Shown here in pieces: positions 17,397 to 48,202 of a stretch of DNA of 64,000 nt. The stretch is from contig JAKQUO010000045.1 in assembly GCA_029569255.1 (NCBI GenBank), forward strand, positions 1 through 64,000, given 5' to 3'. How positions within the stretch are numbered: position 1 is the first letter of the stretch; the number at the start of each line of letters is the position of its first letter. This DNA comes from Acidobacteriota bacterium (GTDB lineage Bacteria > Acidobacteriota > Aminicenantia > Aminicenantales > Saccharicenantaceae). The notes under the pieces were generated by a model, which was not told where the DNA came from, did not search any database, and saw nothing but the letters and a program-made list of their open reading frames with translations. Made by a program: the position numbers and the translations under genes.

Positions 17397-17792
17397 CTAA
17401 TAAATGATCTCCGAAGATCTCGATTCGGAGACCTGCTCCAGTATGTAAACCGTGCGGGGTTGGGATTGGACATCGCGGAACTCGGACGTGTAGTCCACGG
17501 CCTCGTAGACGGGCAGGACGCGCGGCGGCGCCCAGCGGTCCGGAACGGCCGACAGGGCCCGGCGCTCGGCGGTGGTCAGGACGGTCTCCGGCCGCCGGGA
17601 CGCCGGGGCGAAGACCAGGAACCCGACGAGGAGCAGGGCGGCCGACCCGGCGAACGCGAAGCGGTAGGCCGTCGCCCGGCGGGCCCGGGCCCGCTTCTGG
17701 CGCGCCTCCGGCAGTCTGCTCAGGACCGTCCGCTCGAAGCCCTCGGGGGCCCGGACGCGGGTCATTCCGGCGAGTCGTTCACGCCCTTCCAT
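17397..17792 (-). CDS. Single-span membrane protein coupled to ECF sigma gene (candidate anti-sigma)
   Basis: 131 residues: an N-terminal cytosolic segment with a basic patch (LPEARQKRARARRATAYRF), one membrane helix (AFAGSAALLLVGFLVFA), and an extracytoplasmic tail with no known motif. It overlaps the sigma gene by 14 nt, the usual sign of translational coupling of a sigma/anti-sigma pair, and precedes the PDZ protein. It has no HxxxCxxC zinc motif, unlike the partner in the right-hand module. Anti-sigma role is inferred from topology and position only. Confidence 0.68.
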   Translation of the reverse strand: MEGRERLAGMTRVRAPEGFERTVLSRLPEARQKRARARRATAYRFAFAGSAALLLVGFLVFAPASRRPETVLTTAERRALSAVPDRWAPPRVLPVYEAVDYTSEFRDVQSQPRTVYILEQVSESRSSEIIY

Positions 17793-18363
17793 GTTCCCTC
17801 ACCTCGTTCTCGGCCGCGAAAGAGCCGCCCTCGCGGGCCTTTTCGAGCTTGCGCCGGAGCTGCTCCCGGCCCCGGCTGATCCGGGCCTTGACCGTCCCGA
17901 CGGGCCGCTTGATGATCCGGGCGATCTCCTCCTGGGAGAAGCCCTCCATGTCCTTGAGGACGACCGGGACGCGGTAGCGGGGGTGGAGCTCGTCCAGGGC
18001 CTCGTGGAGATTGCGGACCAGGCCGGGGTCGGCCGGGTCGTCGGAGTAGGCCCCGCTCGAGAAGCTGTTGGGGATGTCCTCGAGAGAGACCGTGGCCATC
18101 CGCCTCGACCGCCGGCACTCGGTCTTGGCCAGGTTCGAGGCGATGGCGTAGATCCAGGACGAGAGCGGGGCGATGGGGCGGTAGCGGCCGGCCTTGAAAT
18201 AGACCCGGAGGAAGGTCTCCTGGGCCAGGTCGACGGCCTTCTGGTAGTCGCCCGAGAACTGATAGAGATAATTCACGATCCTGTCCTTGTAGAGGCCCAT
18301 GATCTGGGCGAACGCCTCCTCGTCGCCGTCCTGGACGCGCCGGATAAGCCCTTGTTCGTCCAT
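17779..18363 (-). CDS. ECF-type RNA polymerase sigma factor (left module)
   Basis: 194 residues. Region 2 begins AFAQIMGLYKDRIVNYLYQF and includes the core-binding DLAQETFLRVYFKAGRYRP and the -10-reading WIYAIASNLAKTECRRSRR. Region 4 is a helix-turn-helix, YRVPVVLKDMEGFSQEEIAR then PVGTVKARISRGREQLRRKL. It directs transcription of an extracytoplasmic-stress regulon. It is divergent from a second ECF gene 392 nt away. A weak TGTAACTT element (minus strand, 18397-18404) resembles the -35 of ECF promoters, but no clear -10 partner is seen. Confidence 0.92.
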   Translation of the reverse strand: MDEQGLIRRVQDGDEEAFAQIMGLYKDRIVNYLYQFSGDYQKAVDLAQETFLRVYFKAGRYRPIAPLSSWIYAIASNLAKTECRRSRRMATVSLEDIPNSFSSGAYSDDPADPGLVRNLHEALDELHPRYRVPVVLKDMEGFSQEEIARIIKRPVGTVKARISRGREQLRRKLEKAREGGSFAAENEVREHGRA

Positions 18364-18536
18364 CTCTCGACCTCTACAACCTCGATTTCCCCGAGAAAGT
18401 TACATTGCCGGCCTTCTTCATTATATCAGGTCGGCCCCTTGTTTTCCCGGGGCCGGGCGCTCCGAACGGCGCGGCTCCCCGGGGCCCCGCCGCGGCCGGG
18501 GATCGTCGGAAAGCCGCCTGGCTTGAGGGTGACCCG

Positions 18537-18683
18537 CTCGAGGCGGCGAAGGAGTTCGCCCCGCAGAACCCCATGAGGGAAGGGGGACCCGCGCAGCGGG
18601 GGAAACCGAATAAGAGAGGTTTCCGGGGTGTGGGGGGCCAGGGGCGAATCCCGGGCACAGCCGGAGAGAGGGGCAGTCCTTTG
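18537..18683 (+). ncRNA. Structured RNA element, copy 1 (unassigned)
   Basis: In the 392-nt gap between the divergent sigma genes (18364-18755). Helices visible on the plus strand: GCGAA-GGAG-TTCGC (18546-18559); CCCGC-GCA-GCGGG (18588-18600); GGAAACC-10 nt-GGTTTCC (18601-18624); GCCAGGG-GCGAAT-CCCGGGC (18637-18656, one A-G mismatch). The same order, spacing and loop sizes recur at 28352-28504 with compensatory base changes. Not identified; fragments such as GGGGACCC and GGGGCGAATC recall c-di-AMP (ydaO) riboswitch cores, but the layout does not match. Could be a leader, a stand-alone RNA, or part of a mobile element. Confidence 0.65.
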
Positions 18684-18755: not shown

Positions 18756-19319
18756 GTGAAGTGGGTGGATTTGGAAGCGACCGTCAGGGGCTGCCTGGAA
18801 GGCAGCCCGACCGCTTGGAGAGCCCTGGTGGACGCCTACGCCAGGAGGGTTTTTAACATGGCCTATCAGTTTTGCGGCAGCCGGGAGGAGGCCGAGGACC
18901 TGACCCAGGAGGTCTTCCTCAAGCTCCACGGCGCCCTGCCGAAATACGACTTCGGCAAGAGCTTCACGGCCTGGCTCCTGACGCTGGCCAAGAACCACCT
19001 CATCGACGAGTACCGCCGGACCAAGTGGGAGAAGGCGAACCGCGACGATTTCGACGAACGGGTCCTCTCCCAGGCCGTCGCGGACGGCCCGGAGGCCCGG
19101 CTCGCGGCCAAGGAGACGAAAGAGCTCGTCTGGGAGGGGCTCGGCCTTCTGCCGGCGGACATGCGGATGGTCGTCATCCTGAGGGACCTGCAGGGCAGGA
19201 GCTACGAGGAGGTCGCCGAGGTCCTCGGCCTGCCCCTGGGCACGGTCAAGTCGCGCGTCAACCGGGCGCGGCTGGCCCTGGCCCGGGTCCTGAGGGAACG
19301 ACGGGGAGGCCTGACATGA
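18756..19319 (+). CDS. ECF-type RNA polymerase sigma factor (right module)
   Basis: 187 residues with sigma regions 2 and 4 only. Region 2 runs ALVDAYARRVFNMAYQFCGS, then EEAEDLTQEVFLKLHGALPK and the -10 recognition helix FTAWLLTLAKNHLIDEYRRT. Region 4 is MVVILRDLQGRSYEEVAEVL then LPLGTVKSRVNRARLALARV. The GTG start is preceded by an ECF promoter rather than a Shine-Dalgarno. ATGA overlap with the zinc-finger anti-sigma gene. First gene of a five-gene operon of membrane and surface proteins (18756-21904), probably its own target. Confidence 0.93.
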   Translation: MKWVDLEATVRGCLEGSPTAWRALVDAYARRVFNMAYQFCGSREEAEDLTQEVFLKLHGALPKYDFGKSFTAWLLTLAKNHLIDEYRRTKWEKANRDDFDERVLSQAVADGPEARLAAKETKELVWEGLGLLPADMRMVVILRDLQGRSYEEVAEVLGLPLGTVKSRVNRARLALARVLRERRGGLT

Positions 19320-26550: not shown

Positions 26551-28344
26551 GTGGAGGTCATGTCGGACATCGAGCGGCTCCGGGCGCGGGCGGCCGAGCT
26601 GCCGGCCAAGCCGGGCATCTACTTCTTCAAGAGCGCCTCGGGCGAGGTCGTCTACATCGGCAAGGCCCGCTCGCTCCGCGACCGCGTCCGGTCCTATTTC
26701 CTGGCCAACCCCGACATCAAGGTCCGCCACATCCTCCGCGAGACGGCCGACATCGACTGCATCCTGACCGGTTCGGAGAAGGAAGCCGCCTTCCTCGAGA
26801 ACAACTACGTCCAACAGCACCAGCCCCGCTTCAACCTCCGGCTCAAGGACGACAAGAGCTTCCCCTACCTCAAGCTCACGGTCGGCGAGACCTGGCCGGG
26901 CGTCTATTTCAGCCGCAAGGTCGATCCGGACGGCGCCCGCTACTTCGGGCCCTTCTCGCCGGCCGGCCGGGCCCGCTCCTCCATCCACCTCGTCAACAAG
27001 CACTTCCGCGTCCGCGGCTGCGAGAACTCCGTCTTCCGCGGCCGCAAGCGCCCCTGCCTCGAGTACGAGCTCGGGCTCTGCTCGGCGCCCTGTGTCGGCC
27101 TCGTTTCCGAGGCCGACTACCGGGAGAGCGTGGACAACGCCTGCCTCTTCCTCGAAGGGCGCCTGCCCGAGCTGGCCCGGACGCTCCGGGCGCGTATGGA
27201 GCTCGCGGCCGAGAGCGAGAAGTTCGAGGAGGCCGCCCGCTGGCGCGACACCCTGCGCACGATCGAGGACATCCGCGACCGGCCCAGCGCGATCTCGACC
27301 TCGCTCGAGGACCAGGACGTCGTCGGCCTGGCCCGCGAGGGCGGCCGCGCCGCCGCCTACGTCTTCTTCATGCGCCGGGGCAAGATCCGCAACTCGGCGG
27401 CCCGCCTGCTGGACGTCCCCCCCGGGGCCCCGGACGCCGAGGTCCTGGCCGCCTTCCTGGCCGATTTCTACAAGAACCGGGAGGCCCCGCCCCGGATCCT
27501 CCTGCCCGCCTCGCCGGCCCTCCCCTCCGGCCCGCGGACGCTCCCCGGCCGGGCCAAGGTCCGCCTTCTCGCTCCCCGCGGCGGCAAGGACCGCAGGCTC
27601 GTCGACATGGCCGGGCGCAACGCCGAGGCCTTCCTCCGCCGCCAGGCCGGCGGCGAAGGATCGCCCCTGGAATCGCTCCAGGCCGCCCTCGGCCTTCCCG
27701 CCCTCCCCCGCACCATCGAGGGCTTCGACATCTCCAACACCGGCGGCCGGGAATCGGTCGGATCGCTGGTCGTCTTCCGCGACGGCCGGCCCGACAAGGA
27801 CAGCTACCGCCGCTTTCTCGTCCGGACGGTCGAGGGCCCGAACGACGTCGCCAGCCTCGGGGAGGTCATCACCCGGCGCTACCGCCATCTCCCCGCCGAC
27901 AAGGCGAGCCGGCCCGACCTGGTCATGGTCGACGGCGGCAAGCCCCAGCTCGGGGCCGCGGAGAAGGCCCTGGCCGCGCTCGGCCTCTCCGAACTCCCGC
28001 TTGTCTCCATCGCCAAGAAGGAAGAGATCCTTTTCACGCCCGGCCATCGCGAAGGCCTCCGCCTCGACCGGACCTCCCCCGCCCTCAGGCTGGTCCAGGC
28101 CGTCCGCGACGAGACCCACCGGTTCGCCATCGCCCTCCACCGCGGCCGCCGCGAGAAACGGAGCTTCGCCTCGCTCCTCGACGGCATCCCCGGCCTCGGC
28201 CCCAAGAAGAGGTCAGCTCTCCTCGCCCGCTACGGCGGGATCGACGCCATCCGGAGCGCACCCCGGCCGGAGCTTGACGCGCTCGTCGGAAAGGCCGTGG
28301 CCGGCCTGGTCCTTGACCGGCTTAGAGCAGAAAGCGATTCTTGA
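26551..28344 (+). CDS. uvrC: Excinuclease ABC subunit C
   Basis: 597 residues. UvrC makes both incisions around a lesion bound by UvrB. Order of domains: GIY-YIG nuclease (KPGIYFFKSASGEVVYIGKA, residues about 15-35), Cys-rich centre (CLEYELGLCSAPCVG), UVR motif near 210-240, RNase H-like nuclease (TIEGFDISNTGGRESVGSLV and DLVMVDGGKPQLGAAEKALA), and C-terminal helix-hairpin-helices (GIPGLGPKKRSALLARYG). The GTG at 26551 follows GAGGGGG; an ATG three codons later is possible. Co-oriented with uvrB. Confidence 0.96.
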   Translation: MEVMSDIERLRARAAELPAKPGIYFFKSASGEVVYIGKARSLRDRVRSYFLANPDIKVRHILRETADIDCILTGSEKEAAFLENNYVQQHQPRFNLRLKDDKSFPYLKLTVGETWPGVYFSRKVDPDGARYFGPFSPAGRARSSIHLVNKHFRVRGCENSVFRGRKRPCLEYELGLCSAPCVGLVSEADYRESVDNACLFLEGRLPELARTLRARMELAAESEKFEEAARWRDTLRTIEDIRDRPSAISTSLEDQDVVGLAREGGRAAAYVFFMRRGKIRNSAARLLDVPPGAPDAEVLAAFLADFYKNREAPPRILLPASPALPSGPRTLPGRAKVRLLAPRGGKDRRLVDMAGRNAEAFLRRQAGGEGSPLESLQAALGLPALPRTIEGFDISNTGGRESVGSLVVFRDGRPDKDSYRRFLVRTVEGPNDVASLGEVITRRYRHLPADKASRPDLVMVDGGKPQLGAAEKALAALGLSELPLVSIAKKEEILFTPGHREGLRLDRTSPALRLVQAVRDETHRFAIALHRGRREKRSFASLLDGIPGLGPKKRSALLARYGGIDAIRSAPRPELDALVGKAVAGLVLDRLRAESDS

Positions 28345-28351
28345 GCGGCCC

Positions 28352-28504
28352 GGATCCTCTCAAGGCTGCGAGGGAACTTGCCTCGAAGATCCCCGTTGCT
28401 GGAGGAGGGGACCCGCGGAGCGGGGGGGGAACCGTGCGTAACTGGTTCCCCGGGGGACCGGGGAGCTAGAGGCAATTCTCGAGCAAAGCCGCAGGAGAGG
28501 ATCC
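28352..28504 (+). ncRNA. Structured RNA element, copy 2 (unassigned)
   Basis: Between convergent uvrC and feoB. Perfect outer helix GGATCCTCTC (28352-28361) / GAGAGGATCC (28495-28504). Inside: GCGAG-GGAA-CTTGC (28368-28381), CCCGC-GGA-GCGGG (28412-28424), GGGGAACC-10 nt-GGTTCCCC (28426-28451), GCTAGAG-GCAATT-CTCGAGC (28465-28484, one A-G mismatch). Each helix has a counterpart in copy 1 (18537-18683) with covarying bases. No plus-strand gene lies downstream, so a simple riboswitch is unlikely here. Confidence 0.65.
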
Positions 28505-28531
28505 TGCCGTGTTCGGAAAAACGACGGCTTT

Positions 28532-30463
28532 CTAAAGAACGAGGCGGACGGCCCAGCTCAGGGCCAGGGCCACCCCGACGCTCAGCCCGGCCGAGACGAA
28601 GGCCCACTTCTTCCCGATCTCCTTCCACAGGACGGCGAAGGTGGACAGGCACGGGATGAAGAAGCTGATGAAGACGGTGAAGACGACGAGCTGCTCCCGG
28701 GTTATGACCGACATGATGCTGTGGTAATCGACGCCGAGCGCCTGGAGCATCATGATGAGCGACAGCTCCTTGCGCAGGAAGCCGAAGACGAGCGTCACCC
28801 CGAGCTCGCGCGGCAGCCCCAGCCCCTTGACCACGAGCGGGGCCAGGACGCCGTTGATCCAGCGGTCGGCCCGGACGTAGCTCAGCAGGCTCAGGACGAG
28901 GCTCCCCCCGATGAGGATGGGCCAGGCGAAGCGGATGAACGAATGGACCTGGAGCCAGGTCTTGCGCAGGATGGCCCCGGCCCGGGGCGCCTTGAGCGAC
29001 GGGATCTCCAGGATGAGGCCCGGCGACGGCTCCTTGAGGAACCGGCTGAGGGCCCAGCCGACGACGGCGACGACCAGGATGTTGGCGGCGTAGAAGCCCA
29101 TGGCCCAGAGGGGCCCGAGATAGAAGGCCACCAGGGCCAGGACGATGGTCGTCCTGGCCGAGCAGGGGATGAACGGGATGAGGACCGAGGTCAGGACCCG
29201 GTCCCGGTGGGACTCGAGCGTGCGCGTGGCCATGATGGCCGGCACGTTGCACCCGAACCCGAGGACGAAGGGCGAGATCGACTTGCCGTGCAGACCGATC
29301 CGGTGCATGAAGGCGTCGAGGAGGAAGCCGGCCCGGGCGAGATAGCCGAAGTCCTCGAGCGCCGACATGAGGAACAGGAGCGGCAGGAAATAGGGCAGGA
29401 CGATGGCCACGCCTCCCCCGATCCCCTGGAGGAGCCCTTCGGCGAGGTGGAACACGAGCCCGGAGCCGAGCCGGGCCGCCAGGGCCGCCCTGAGCTTGAT
29501 GAACGGGCCGAGCAGGAGCGACTCGAGCGGGCTGCCGACCTTGAAGATGACGGTGAAGAAGGCCAGGAACACGGCCGCCAGGATGACGTAGCCCAGGACG
29601 GGGTGCATGAGGACGGCGTCCAGCCTCTTGTCCCAGGTCATGCGCCGGCCGCGGAGGACGCGGCTGGTGTCCTCGAAGAGCTTCATGGCCTGGTGGTGCC
29701 GCTCGGCCGAGACGACCTCGTAGGCCGGCGCGCCGCGGCGCTCCTCGAGCTCCCGGAGGACGCGGTCCACGTCGGCCTTGAGGCCCGGCTCGACCTGGCC
29801 GAGGAAATCGCCGCAGGCGTGCCCGGCCGTCTCGACGAGCTTGACGGCCGTGAAGCGGGCGTTGGAGACGACCGGGAAGCCCGGCGGCAGCGACCGCTCG
29901 AGCCCGGCGATCCGGTCCTCGACGTCGGCCGAGAACGGGAGCGGCCGCGGGCGGCCGCCCCGGTCCAGGACCTCGAAGACGCGGTCCAGCAGCTCCTTGA
30001 CGCCGCGGCCGTGGGCGGCGATGGTCGGCACGACCGGGACGCCGAGGAGCCGCCCGAGCGCGGCCGCGTCGGTCCGGACGCCCTTGCGCTCGGCCACGTC
30101 GGTCATGTTCAGGGCGACGACCAGGGGGTAGCCGAGCTCGACCAGCTCCAGGGTCAGCTCCAGGCCGCGGCTGAGGGTCGAGGCGTCGACGACGTTGACG
30201 ACCAGGTCCGGCCGCTCGTCGAAGAGATGGGTCAGGACGACCTGCTCGGCGGGGTCGGTCGTGCAGAGCGAGTAGGCGCCCGGCAGGTCGACGATGTCGA
30301 GCAGGCGGCCCTCGATGTTGACCCGGCTGTGGGTGTGCTTGATGGAGGTGCCGGGGAAGTTCGAGGTCTCCGCCTTGGGCCCGGCGATGGAGTTGAACAG
30401 GGTGCTCTTGCCGCTGTTGGGCTGGCCGATGAAGACGACCGACGGGGCGTCAGGACGGTTCAT
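28532..30463 (-). CDS. feoB: Ferrous iron transport protein B
   Basis: 643 residues. FeoB is the inner-membrane Fe(II) transporter with an N-terminal G-domain. G1 is IGQPNSGKST (residues 12-21), G2 ETSNFPGTSIK, G3 DIVDLPGAYSL, G4 NMTD. A helical GDI-like segment follows, then the Gate regions with core motifs FGYLARAGFLLDAFMHRIGL and LGFGCNVPAIMATRTLE, where the Cys faces the pore. Length is shorter than E. coli FeoB (773) but normal for single-Gate-pair anaerobe proteins. Starts within feoA (14-nt overlap). Confidence 0.95.
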   Translation of the reverse strand: MNRPDAPSVVFIGQPNSGKSTLFNSIAGPKAETSNFPGTSIKHTHSRVNIEGRLLDIVDLPGAYSLCTTDPAEQVVLTHLFDERPDLVVNVVDASTLSRGLELTLELVELGYPLVVALNMTDVAERKGVRTDAAALGRLLGVPVVPTIAAHGRGVKELLDRVFEVLDRGGRPRPLPFSADVEDRIAGLERSLPPGFPVVSNARFTAVKLVETAGHACGDFLGQVEPGLKADVDRVLRELEERRGAPAYEVVSAERHHQAMKLFEDTSRVLRGRRMTWDKRLDAVLMHPVLGYVILAAVFLAFFTVIFKVGSPLESLLLGPFIKLRAALAARLGSGLVFHLAEGLLQGIGGGVAIVLPYFLPLLFLMSALEDFGYLARAGFLLDAFMHRIGLHGKSISPFVLGFGCNVPAIMATRTLESHRDRVLTSVLIPFIPCSARTTIVLALVAFYLGPLWAMGFYAANILVVAVVGWALSRFLKEPSPGLILEIPSLKAPRAGAILRKTWLQVHSFIRFAWPILIGGSLVLSLLSYVRADRWINGVLAPLVVKGLGLPRELGVTLVFGFLRKELSLIMMLQALGVDYHSIMSVITREQLVVFTVFISFFIPCLSTFAVLWKEIGKKWAFVSAGLSVGVALALSWAVRLVL

Positions 30464-46109: not shown

Positions 46110-46134
46110 CAGGCCCCGCGGCCTCTGCTATTCT
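46106..46134 (+). promoter_or_regulatory. Promoter of TonB receptor overlapping the permease stop codon
   Basis: TTGACA at 46106-46111 contains the TGA of the permease gene (46107-46109); 17 nt later comes TATTCT (46129-46134). It would give a 5' leader of roughly 105 nt. Confidence 0.65.
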
Positions 46135-46139
46135 GCCGC

Positions 46140-46228
46140 TTCACTCCGAGTCGGAGGCGCTAACGCCTTATCCGGCCAGGCCCTCCGGCCGTCAGGGATG
46201 AGCGGGAAACGGCTCATCCTTCCATCGC
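46140..46228 (+). promoter_or_regulatory. Hairpin-rich 5' leader of TonB receptor
   Basis: Successive helices: TCCGAGTCGGA, GGCGCTAACGCC, GGCC...GGCC, and GGATGAGC-GGGAAACG-GCTCATCC, ending before the AAAAGGAG ribosome site. The arrangement suggests an RNA leader, but no known riboswitch class is recognised. Confidence 0.4.
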
Positions 46229-46243
46229 GAAAAGGAGAATCAC

Positions 46244-48202
46244 ATGACGCCATCCCCGCGCTCCAATCCCCTGTCAGGCCTCGCCGTCCTCGGCCTGCTG
46301 GGCCTGGCCCTCGTCCTCGCGCCGGCCCTGGCTCAGGTGAAGGCTGAAGACGACAAGGCCAAGGCCGAGCAGGACAAGCCCGTCCGGATCACCGAGGAGA
46401 TCCAGGTCGTCGGCAAGGCCCCCAAGGACGTCCCCCTGGCCACCGTCACGACCGTCGTGGCCGCGGACATCGGCAAGCTCAAGCCCCGCGACCTTTCCGA
46501 CGTCGTCAAGTACGTCCCCGGCGCCCTGGTCACGTTCGGCGACAAGGACACCTACTCCCTCAAGCTCCGCGGCATCGGCTCCAACCGCATCGCTCTCCTC
46601 GTCGACGGCGTGCCGGTCTACGAGCCCTACTTCTCGACCTTCGACCTCAAGACGGTCTCGGCCGGCGGCATCGACACGCTGCAGGTGACCAAGGGCCCGT
46701 CCTCCGTCCTTTACGGCCCCAACACCCTCGGCGGCCTGGTCAACGTCATCACCCGGCGGCCGTCCGACCGCCCCTACCTCTCGCTGACGGGCAGCACCGG
46801 CGACAAGGCCACGTTCGGCGCCGGGGCCGACGGCTCCTGCTCCTGGCGGAGGTTCTCGCTCGCGGCCAGCGCCCTCTACCAGTCCTCCGACGGGTTCGCC
46901 TTTCCCGATCCCGCGAGCGGCGATCGGACGTCGCGGGCCAACGGGGACTTCGAGCGCCTCAACCTCAGCGGCAAGCTCTACTACACGCCGTCGGACCGGA
47001 CCGAGATCATGGTCAGCGCCGCGACCTACCGGTCCGCCTACGGCATGCCCCCGGCCCTGTCCGTCCAGCGGGCCCGGTACTGGCGGTTCCCGAAGTGGGA
47101 CCGCTCGAGCCTGAGCGCCGGCGGCTTCACCTCGCTCGGCGGCGACGCCGTCCTGCGCTTCCGCGGCTTCTACGTCAACTACTACAACAAGCTCGACTGG
47201 TTCAACGACCCGGCCATGACCGTCATCAACTCGGTCAGCGTCTACGACAATTCGTCCTACGGCGGATTCGCCCTGGCCGAGACGCCCGTCGGCGGCCGGA
47301 ACACGCTCAAGGCCAGCCTGCTCTACCAGAGGGACATCGTCCGCCAGCAGGACAACGTCGGCCTGCCCTGGGAACATTACAACCAGGGGACGGTCTCGGC
47401 CGGGGTCGAGGACGAGCTCCGGCTGTCCGGGATGTGGAAGGTCATCGGCGGCCTGAGCCTCGACTACATCGACAAGTTCCGGGGCGGCGAGAACAACACC
47501 TCGGTCAATCCCCTCATCGGCGTCAAGCTCACGCCCTCCGAGGCCCTCGACTTCCACGTCTCCTTCGCCCGCAAGTCGCGCTTCCCCTCGATGCGCGCCC
47601 TCTACTCGTCGAGCTCGGGCAACCCGGACCTGCTGGCCGAGTCGGGCACCAGCCTGGAGTTCGCGGCGACCTGGAGCGGCCCGGTCTATCTGACCGGGAC
47701 CGTCTTCCTCAACCGCTTCCGCGACTTCATCGACACCGTCGTTCTCCCGGGCGGCATCCGGCAGTACCTCAACATCGGCCGGGCCCACATCCACGGCTTC
47801 GAGGTCCAGGCCCAGAAGAAGCTCGGCTGGCTCGAGGCCACGGTCAACTACACCTTCCTCGACCCCCGGAACGACACCGACGACCGGCCCCTCGACGCCC
47901 AGTCCAAGAGCAACCTCAACTTCGACGTCTCGGTCCTGCCGGCCAAGGGCCTGAGGGCCGGGGTCTACGGCCTGATGGGCTCGAGGTCGTGGTGGTGGAA
48001 CACCCGGACCAGCCCGGCCTCGCTGCTGACGATCCCCGCCTACTTCAACCTGGACGGCATCGTCAGCTTCGAGCTCCGGGACCGCTATCAGGTCTTCGTC
48101 AAGCTCGGCAACGTCTTCGACCGCTACTTCTACACCGAGCCGGGGTTCCCCTGGCGCGGGCGGTACTTCGAGGTGGGACTGCGGCTCGACCTCTTGAAGT
48201 GA
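46244..48202 (+). CDS. TonB-dependent outer membrane receptor
   Basis: 652 residues. Signal peptide (LVLAPALA), a TonB-box-like ITEEIQVVGKAP, then the plug domain (DLSDVVKYVPGALVTFG, SLKLRGIGSNRIALLVDGVP, VTKGPSSVLYGPNTLGGLVN) and a 22-strand barrel ending in YFEVGLRLDLLK. Takes up scarce nutrients such as metal complexes or cobalamin using TonB energy. No TonB-ExbBD in the window. The substrate is unknown; the plug resembles the cobalamin/siderophore receptor group. Confidence 0.92.
   Translation: MTPSPRSNPLSGLAVLGLLGLALVLAPALAQVKAEDDKAKAEQDKPVRITEEIQVVGKAPKDVPLATVTTVVAADIGKLKPRDLSDVVKYVPGALVTFGDKDTYSLKLRGIGSNRIALLVDGVPVYEPYFSTFDLKTVSAGGIDTLQVTKGPSSVLYGPNTLGGLVNVITRRPSDRPYLSLTGSTGDKATFGAGADGSCSWRRFSLAASALYQSSDGFAFPDPASGDRTSRANGDFERLNLSGKLYYTPSDRTEIMVSAATYRSAYGMPPALSVQRARYWRFPKWDRSSLSAGGFTSLGGDAVLRFRGFYVNYYNKLDWFNDPAMTVINSVSVYDNSSYGGFALAETPVGGRNTLKASLLYQRDIVRQQDNVGLPWEHYNQGTVSAGVEDELRLSGMWKVIGGLSLDYIDKFRGGENNTSVNPLIGVKLTPSEALDFHVSFARKSRFPSMRALYSSSSGNPDLLAESGTSLEFAATWSGPVYLTGTVFLNRFRDFIDTVVLPGGIRQYLNIGRAHIHGFEVQAQKKLGWLEATVNYTFLDPRNDTDDRPLDAQSKSNLNFDVSVLPAKGLRAGVYGLMGSRSWWWNTRTSPASLLTIPAYFNLDGIVSFELRDRYQVFVKLGNVFDRYFYTEPGFPWRGRYFEVGLRLDLLK

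Follow-up and report, generated by a model that had tools for sequence, protein, structure and literature searches.

ISL3 insertion sequences generate an 8-bp, A/T-rich target duplication. MITEs, and MITE-like repeats with conserved RNA folds, are known already. The CIR repeats of Caulobacter and its relatives are MITE-like, intergenic elements of about 110 bp for which phylogenetically conserved RNA folds have been proposed (PMC2229807), and the RUP element of pneumococcus, which is non-autonomous and has TA targets, is ascribed to the transposase that the insertion sequence IS630-Spn1 encodes (PMC2229807).

The stretch of DNA analysed here (the window) comprises 64,000 nucleotides of a draft genome (2.74 Mb, 62 contigs) from a bacterium of the Aminicenantia. 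The original prediction, made from the letters alone, described an unassigned structured RNA with covarying helices that was present twice in this window. Both copies lie where they had been placed; they are homologous (mean column identity of 77% in a pairwise alignment), adopt similar structures and fold better than dinucleotide shuffles (z of -2.2 and -3.7). The present analysis indicates that the two are very probably members of a family of non-autonomous DNA transposons (MITEs), a reading based on copy number, dispersal, element ends, 8-bp duplications and the empty uvrC-feoB sites of related genomes. The limits of the copies were set by R1, a covariance model built from 20 copies of the host genus, and the relevant features are listed below.

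17779-18363, - strand: ECF sigma factor flanking copy 1 (Sigma70_r2, Sigma70_r4_2)
18527-18680, + strand: copy 1, R1 model limits (110.4 bits, E 2.8e-29), ends decayed or variant
18532-18539, + strand: copy 1, 5' arm of P1, partner 18666-18673 (consensus structure mapped onto the sequence)
18551-18562, + strand: copy 1, 5' arm of P3, GGAGTTCGCCCC, partner GGGGCGAATCCC at 18641-18652 (12 of 12 P3 pairs with two-sided change in 57 copies)
18568-18573, + strand: copy 1, 5' arm of P4, partner at about 18631-18636 (97.6% of cells paired in 57 copies)
18588-18600, + strand: copy 1, head hairpin P5, CCCGCgcaGCGGG (5 of 5 pairs with two-sided change in 57 copies)
18601-18624, + strand: copy 1, head hairpin P6, GGAAACC...GGTTTCC (99.7% of cells paired in 57 copies)
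18756-19319, + strand: ECF sigma factor flanking copy 1 (Sigma70_r2, Sigma70_r4_2)
26551-28344, + strand: uvrC, flanking copy 2 (UvrC_RNaseH_dom, GIY-YIG)
28332-28348, + strand: copy 2, probable left inverted-repeat end, decayed (inferred from alignment with intact copies)
28349-28509, + strand: copy 2, R1 model limits (145.4 bits, E 2e-39)
28510-28526, + strand: copy 2, probable right inverted-repeat end, decayed (inferred from alignment with intact copies)
28532-30463, - strand: feoB, flanking copy 2 (FeoB_N, Gate, FeoB_C)

Copy 1 is intergenic between two divergent ECF sigma-factor genes (assigned by Pfam), and copy 2 is located between the convergent uvrC and feoB genes, i.e., between two gene 3' ends. 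The final codons of uvrC and its stop (28342-28344) appear to fall within the probable left end of copy 2 (window 28332-28344), and thus the uvrC C-terminus seems to have been rewritten by the insertion. No clean 8-bp duplication of its own was found at copy 1 or copy 2, and we infer that the window copies are old and have lost their clean ends. Elsewhere in the window, a Moco/tungsten riboswitch (RF01055, 53.6 bits) occupies 46132-46253 on the + strand and overlaps the start of a predicted gene at 46244-48202.

The consensus fold consists of an outer helix, P1, followed by P2, P3 and P4 and then by the head hairpins P5 and P6. P1 encloses the whole fold and, in intact copies, runs on into the inverted-repeat ends, and P3 is the longer helix that holds much of the covariation. 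Among the four hairpins described originally, CCCGC/GCGGG and GGAAACC/GGTTTCC hold, whereas the other two are local alternatives to P3: GCGAA/TTCGC is 93% paired within the genus, and GCCAGGG/CCCGGGC is 76% paired with one pair broken in 15 of 20 copies. The claim of covariation itself was borne out far beyond chance. In the alignment of 20 genus copies, 94.1% of cells are paired and 16 of 41 pairs show two-sided change, a level reached by none of 500 shuffles; in the alignment of 57 copies from three phyla, which was fitted to the model and therefore leans towards structure, the corresponding values are 95.1% and 34 of 41, again unmatched in 500 shuffles. The 57-copy score is 0.518 vs. 0.140 +/- 0.007, and every slid control collapses.

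The most conserved part of the element is the head of about 85 nt (P4 to P6), which contains 32 invariant columns over 50 sequences from three phyla; most letters of the unpaired stretches GTAGCGGA and CCGNCGGGACTGG belong to these columns. It sits on a species-specific stem, and the outer stems reach 25-30 bp and are nearly perfect. The heads of one Elusimicrobia copy and one Yanofskybacteria copy fold with z of about -5, and for the Yanofskybacteria head, energy folding alone recovers P3, P4, P5 and P6 (z -5.2). Rfam scans found no known class for the element, either over the window with curated cut-offs or with both copies at E<=10, where only noise was returned and the nearest riboswitch, SAM-IV, did not reach its cut-off of 38 bits (17 bits). 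A conserved, covarying structure with many homologues and no counterpart among catalogued RNAs is the supported part of the earlier reading.

By contrast, the description of the RNA as present twice needs to be replaced, since the two copies belong to a family that numbers tens of members in each genome. Among 60 relatives searched at the DNA level with copy 2, 22 gave matches, often at several loci. With R1, 18 of 19 selected genomes were positive, and genomes of the host genus carried roughly 10 to 54 copies each; weaker yet clear matches extended across the host order, and 33 of 142 genomes of the class were positive. A second covariance model built from diverse copies, R2, counted about 102 copies in an Elusimicrobia bin (G144), 25 in a Yanofskybacteria bin of 0.7 Mb (G142), 53 in G080 and 42 in G042, so that the number per element-bearing genome ranges roughly from 10 to 102 (host genus, G042, G080 and G144). 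When 84,980 species genomes were scanned for an exact pattern taken from the best-conserved hairpin, the matches listed comprised more than 100 stretches, mostly from Aminicenantes; others listed were from two Elusimicrobia bins, Yanofskybacteria, Woykebacteria and Taylorbacteria. An Actinobacteria contig with the hairpin alone, in a genome that lacks a model match, was treated as chance. In an even sample of the whole host phylum, 12 of 396 genomes were positive, all from the host order, which indicates a patchy distribution. The type-I head was not found in the phages, plasmids and viral contigs searched, and the own-genus pattern occurred in 8 viral contigs with weak and partial model matches.

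Several features of the arrangement of the copies were also observed. Three to four copies stand side by side in tandem arrays at G015:C6:44703-45238 and G018:C16:60749-61242 (another genus of the family), and elsewhere the copies are scattered. Among copies of G080 (L479-L486) and G142 (L467, L470 and L472), inter-copy similarity runs well past the stem on both sides, and the head thus seems to be part of a larger repeat there. In addition, the genome listed as "Clostridiales bacterium A05DMB-I-28" (JARYMI01; loci L128, L147 and L159) appears to be the Aminicenantes genome G042, so that its public label is probably an error.

A complete copy measures about 155-200 bp, with variants of 85-330 bp, and contains no transposase gene. 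Both ends, GGTTCTTCTCCC and GGGAGAAGAACC, are present with at most 3 mismatches per end in 50 of the 120 distinct genus copies. The 8-mers that flank these 50 copies are 59.8% identical, vs. 35.3% for shuffled partners (maximum of 43.8% in 2000); eight is the clear best register, and the duplications are preferentially A/T-rich in the host genus. Exact 8-bp duplications include AAAAAAAT (L305), TTTATTTA (L335) and GAAAAAAA (L066). The same folded head has other ends in Elusimicrobia and Patescibacteria than in Aminicenantes: 20 Elusimicrobia copies have the ends GWAAGGGTTTAGC, and their 8-bp duplications are exact in 13 of 20 and agree at 6 or more of 8 positions in 18 of 20 (89% vs. 36%). Moreover, the gap between uvrC and feoB measures 187 bp in the window genome vs. 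29 bp in G009 and 16 bp in both G011 and G007; at this one locus tested, the site of copy 2 is empty in all three congeners. In G002, a head-less relative of the copy 2 insertion directly follows uvrC and is itself followed by a second element, as judged by eye from the shared flanks. The reading from the letters alone had missed that the sequence is a transposable element, with inverted repeats at its termini and target duplications of 8 bp.

There is also a longer type, of about 300 bp, which has the same ends and outer stems around another inner domain (GGCAGGGAGCGGAG...GCGACCATCAG...CTGGGAAATATC...GATATTTC). It occurs at L343, L344, L345, L347, L354 and L355 (G002, G003, G006 and G012) and at L079-L082 (G009); its inner domain is conserved between species and, in L079, the single copy compared with Rfam, matched no family.

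All 42 copies examined for context are intergenic relative to predicted genes, which were called by a simple script using the codon usage of the window. The 3'-side gene points towards the element in about two thirds of them, and about one third lie between convergent genes, a bias that fits insertions tolerated near gene ends. Neighbour genes and orientations vary from copy to copy. Many copies adjoin terminator T-runs, in line with A/T-rich targets; targeting of terminators in the manner of group IIC introns was considered and rejected, since the copies occur in either orientation and 8-bp A/T-rich targets account for the runs.

With regard to mobility, G080 carries a complete ISL3 insertion sequence (PF01610) with a 433-codon open frame at L362:1466-2810, whose ends, GGATCATCTCCCATTT, agree at 15 of 16 terminal letters with the host-genus form of the element, GGTTCATCTCCCATTT; this match concerns host-genus copies only, in which intact ends have the form GGTTCATCTCCC. 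In the window genome, ISL3 copies lie at contig ends; their own ends, which begin with GGTTCTTC, agree with the element over the first 8 letters only. The near-identity of the G080 ends to those of the element suggests that an ISL3-type transposase is probably the mover in Aminicenantes. No ISL3 gene could be recognized in most element-rich genomes (e.g., G002 and G009, with 7-10 contigs), and none was detected in G144 or G142; IS66, which was sought for the GTAA-type ends, was absent as well. The ISL3 absences are weak evidence, because binned genomes often lose multi-copy insertion sequences and because some G002 contigs break off within elements into which a different insertion sequence has inserted. 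A search for an autonomous copy with the same ends and head found none. Two long-spaced end pairs in G002, considered as a possible autonomous partner, proved to enclose host genes or to belong to a second or neighbouring element, and a 1.7-kb insert in a G011 copy (L342:1416-2837, G011:C2) proved to be an unrelated insertion sequence of the DDE type (DUF772/DDE_Tnp_1_6), with ends GAGGCTGTGTC/GACACAGCCTC, inside the P5 loop of the element, implying that the hairpin is a landing site for another insertion sequence.

In the proposed mechanism, a DDE transposase supplied in trans would bind the ends of the element, excise or copy it and insert it with an 8-bp stagger, and the head would be retained because it is useful to the element itself, whether it acts as folded RNA or as a DNA hairpin that is strand-specific or cruciform. 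Counted against the MITE reading are the ISL3 gaps in element-rich genomes, the failure to find an autonomous copy and the lack of a clean duplication at the window copies, together with the conservation of the head across phyla, which is more than a plain MITE needs.

DNA hairpins and palindrome correction can yield the same covariation as a folded RNA, and compensatory change alone is therefore no proof of RNA function; the source of the covariation could be RNA, a DNA hairpin or palindrome correction. Within the MITE reading, the head may be a true structured RNA (a ribozyme, a transposase-bound RNA or a limiter of damage to host transcripts) that serves as cargo or working part of different MITEs, a view to which we give somewhat less than an even chance. 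It would account for the near-invariance of the unpaired head letters over three phyla, where the stems vary freely with compensation, and for the stable folding of the Elusimicrobia and Yanofskybacteria heads. The fold may instead matter as DNA, as a cruciform or a single-stranded hairpin recognized by transposase or replication machinery, with the long-stem covariation largely due to palindrome correction by template switching; this too is plausible, at a little under even. The long, nearly perfect, species-specific outer stems agree with such a DNA role, as do P5 loops that occur in opposite orientations in related copies (TTCGAGAGAA in L105 and TTCTCTCGAA in L121), which points to template switching inside the hairpin; correction alone, however, leaves the invariance of the unpaired head letters across phyla unexplained. 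The balance of G-U and A-C mismatches, counted in cells that are not independent since the copies are related, differs between helices: in P3, G-U exceeds A-C by 97 to 38 (summed from the table, with one consensus G-U pair left out), as expected with one folded strand and against a DNA fold, whereas the other helices (P1 66:48, P2 10:15, P4 6:10, P5 9:9 and P6 11:4) show near parity or few such cells, unlike a typical RNA and in keeping with DNA. A tRNA control for this balance is not valid, as ARAGORN brackets standard pairs only. Thus, a strand-specific fold is only modestly favoured, mainly for P3, and it is possible that the element acts as RNA, despite the occurrence of copies in both orientations relative to neighbour genes. 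It might further be suggested, tentatively and with the balance on the doubtful side, that the head is a new module of structured RNA (or strand-specific DNA), common to several phyla and able to function with more than a single transposase system. MITEs whose ends are unrelated would have taken it up in Aminicenantes, Elusimicrobia and Patescibacteria, and selection for mobility or harmlessness to the host would maintain it.

Two explanations outside the MITE reading were weighed as well. The GTAG at the base of the head, with which the unpaired part of the head begins, brings to mind REP elements and mobilization by a RAYT (Y1) transposase, and Y1 genes (PF01797) are present in 18 of the 20 genomes searched. 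However, no element lies within about 1.5 kb of any of the 30 Y1 loci, G013 and G020 have Y1 genes yet no model match, and neither 8-bp duplications nor inverted-repeat ends are known as features of REP/RAYT systems, which makes this origin very improbable. The compact, GC-rich, covarying intergenic fold, together with the likeness to ydaO and HEARO proposed in the original prediction, suggested either cis-regulation of the neighbouring genes, for instance by a riboswitch, or a guide RNA of the OMEGA/HEARO kind. Neither likeness survived: ydaO (RF00379) gave no match and copy 2 is not in a 5'-UTR position, HEARO (RF02033) gave no match even at E<=1 across 12 loci with divergent copies, and iscB and tnpB are absent among the genes flanking both window copies (Pfam), as had been noted from the outset. 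Since the copies are dispersed among unrelated neighbours in every orientation, and orthologous sites are empty, such regulatory or guide functions are regarded as extremely unlikely.

MITEs are usually viewed as passive deletion derivatives with a drifting middle, whereas in the present MITE family conservation is highest in the middle. This makes it testable whether an active folded core is needed for the spread of MITEs. It also serves as a warning that strong covariation without an Rfam match, the usual recipe for a new RNA class, can stem from a hairpin-rich transposable element.

Compared with the known systems, the element resembles ISL3 insertion sequences and ISL3-derived MITEs in its ends, GG[A/T]TC[A/T]TCTCCC, which are nearly identical to those of the G080 ISL3, and in its 8-bp A/T-rich duplication; unlike ISL3, it has no transposase inside and has a head conserved across phyla, and the ends of its Elusimicrobia form differ in a genome where no ISL3 gene was detected. 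HEARO/OMEGA RNA (RF02033) is likewise multi-copy, structured and linked to transposons, but the element has no covariance-model match to it and no nuclease gene adjoining the window copies. RUP shares the non-autonomous state and the tie to an insertion-sequence transposase and differs from the present element, which has 8-bp duplications and ISL3-type ends. CIR repeats, likened here by description, are also MITE-like intergenic repeats with a conserved fold, but they have a GANTC site and two arms and are conserved within the alphaproteobacteria, whereas the present element spans three phyla. No description of this element was found in the literature searched, and what appears new, to our knowledge, is a MITE head that is nearly invariant in three phyla while the ends differ.
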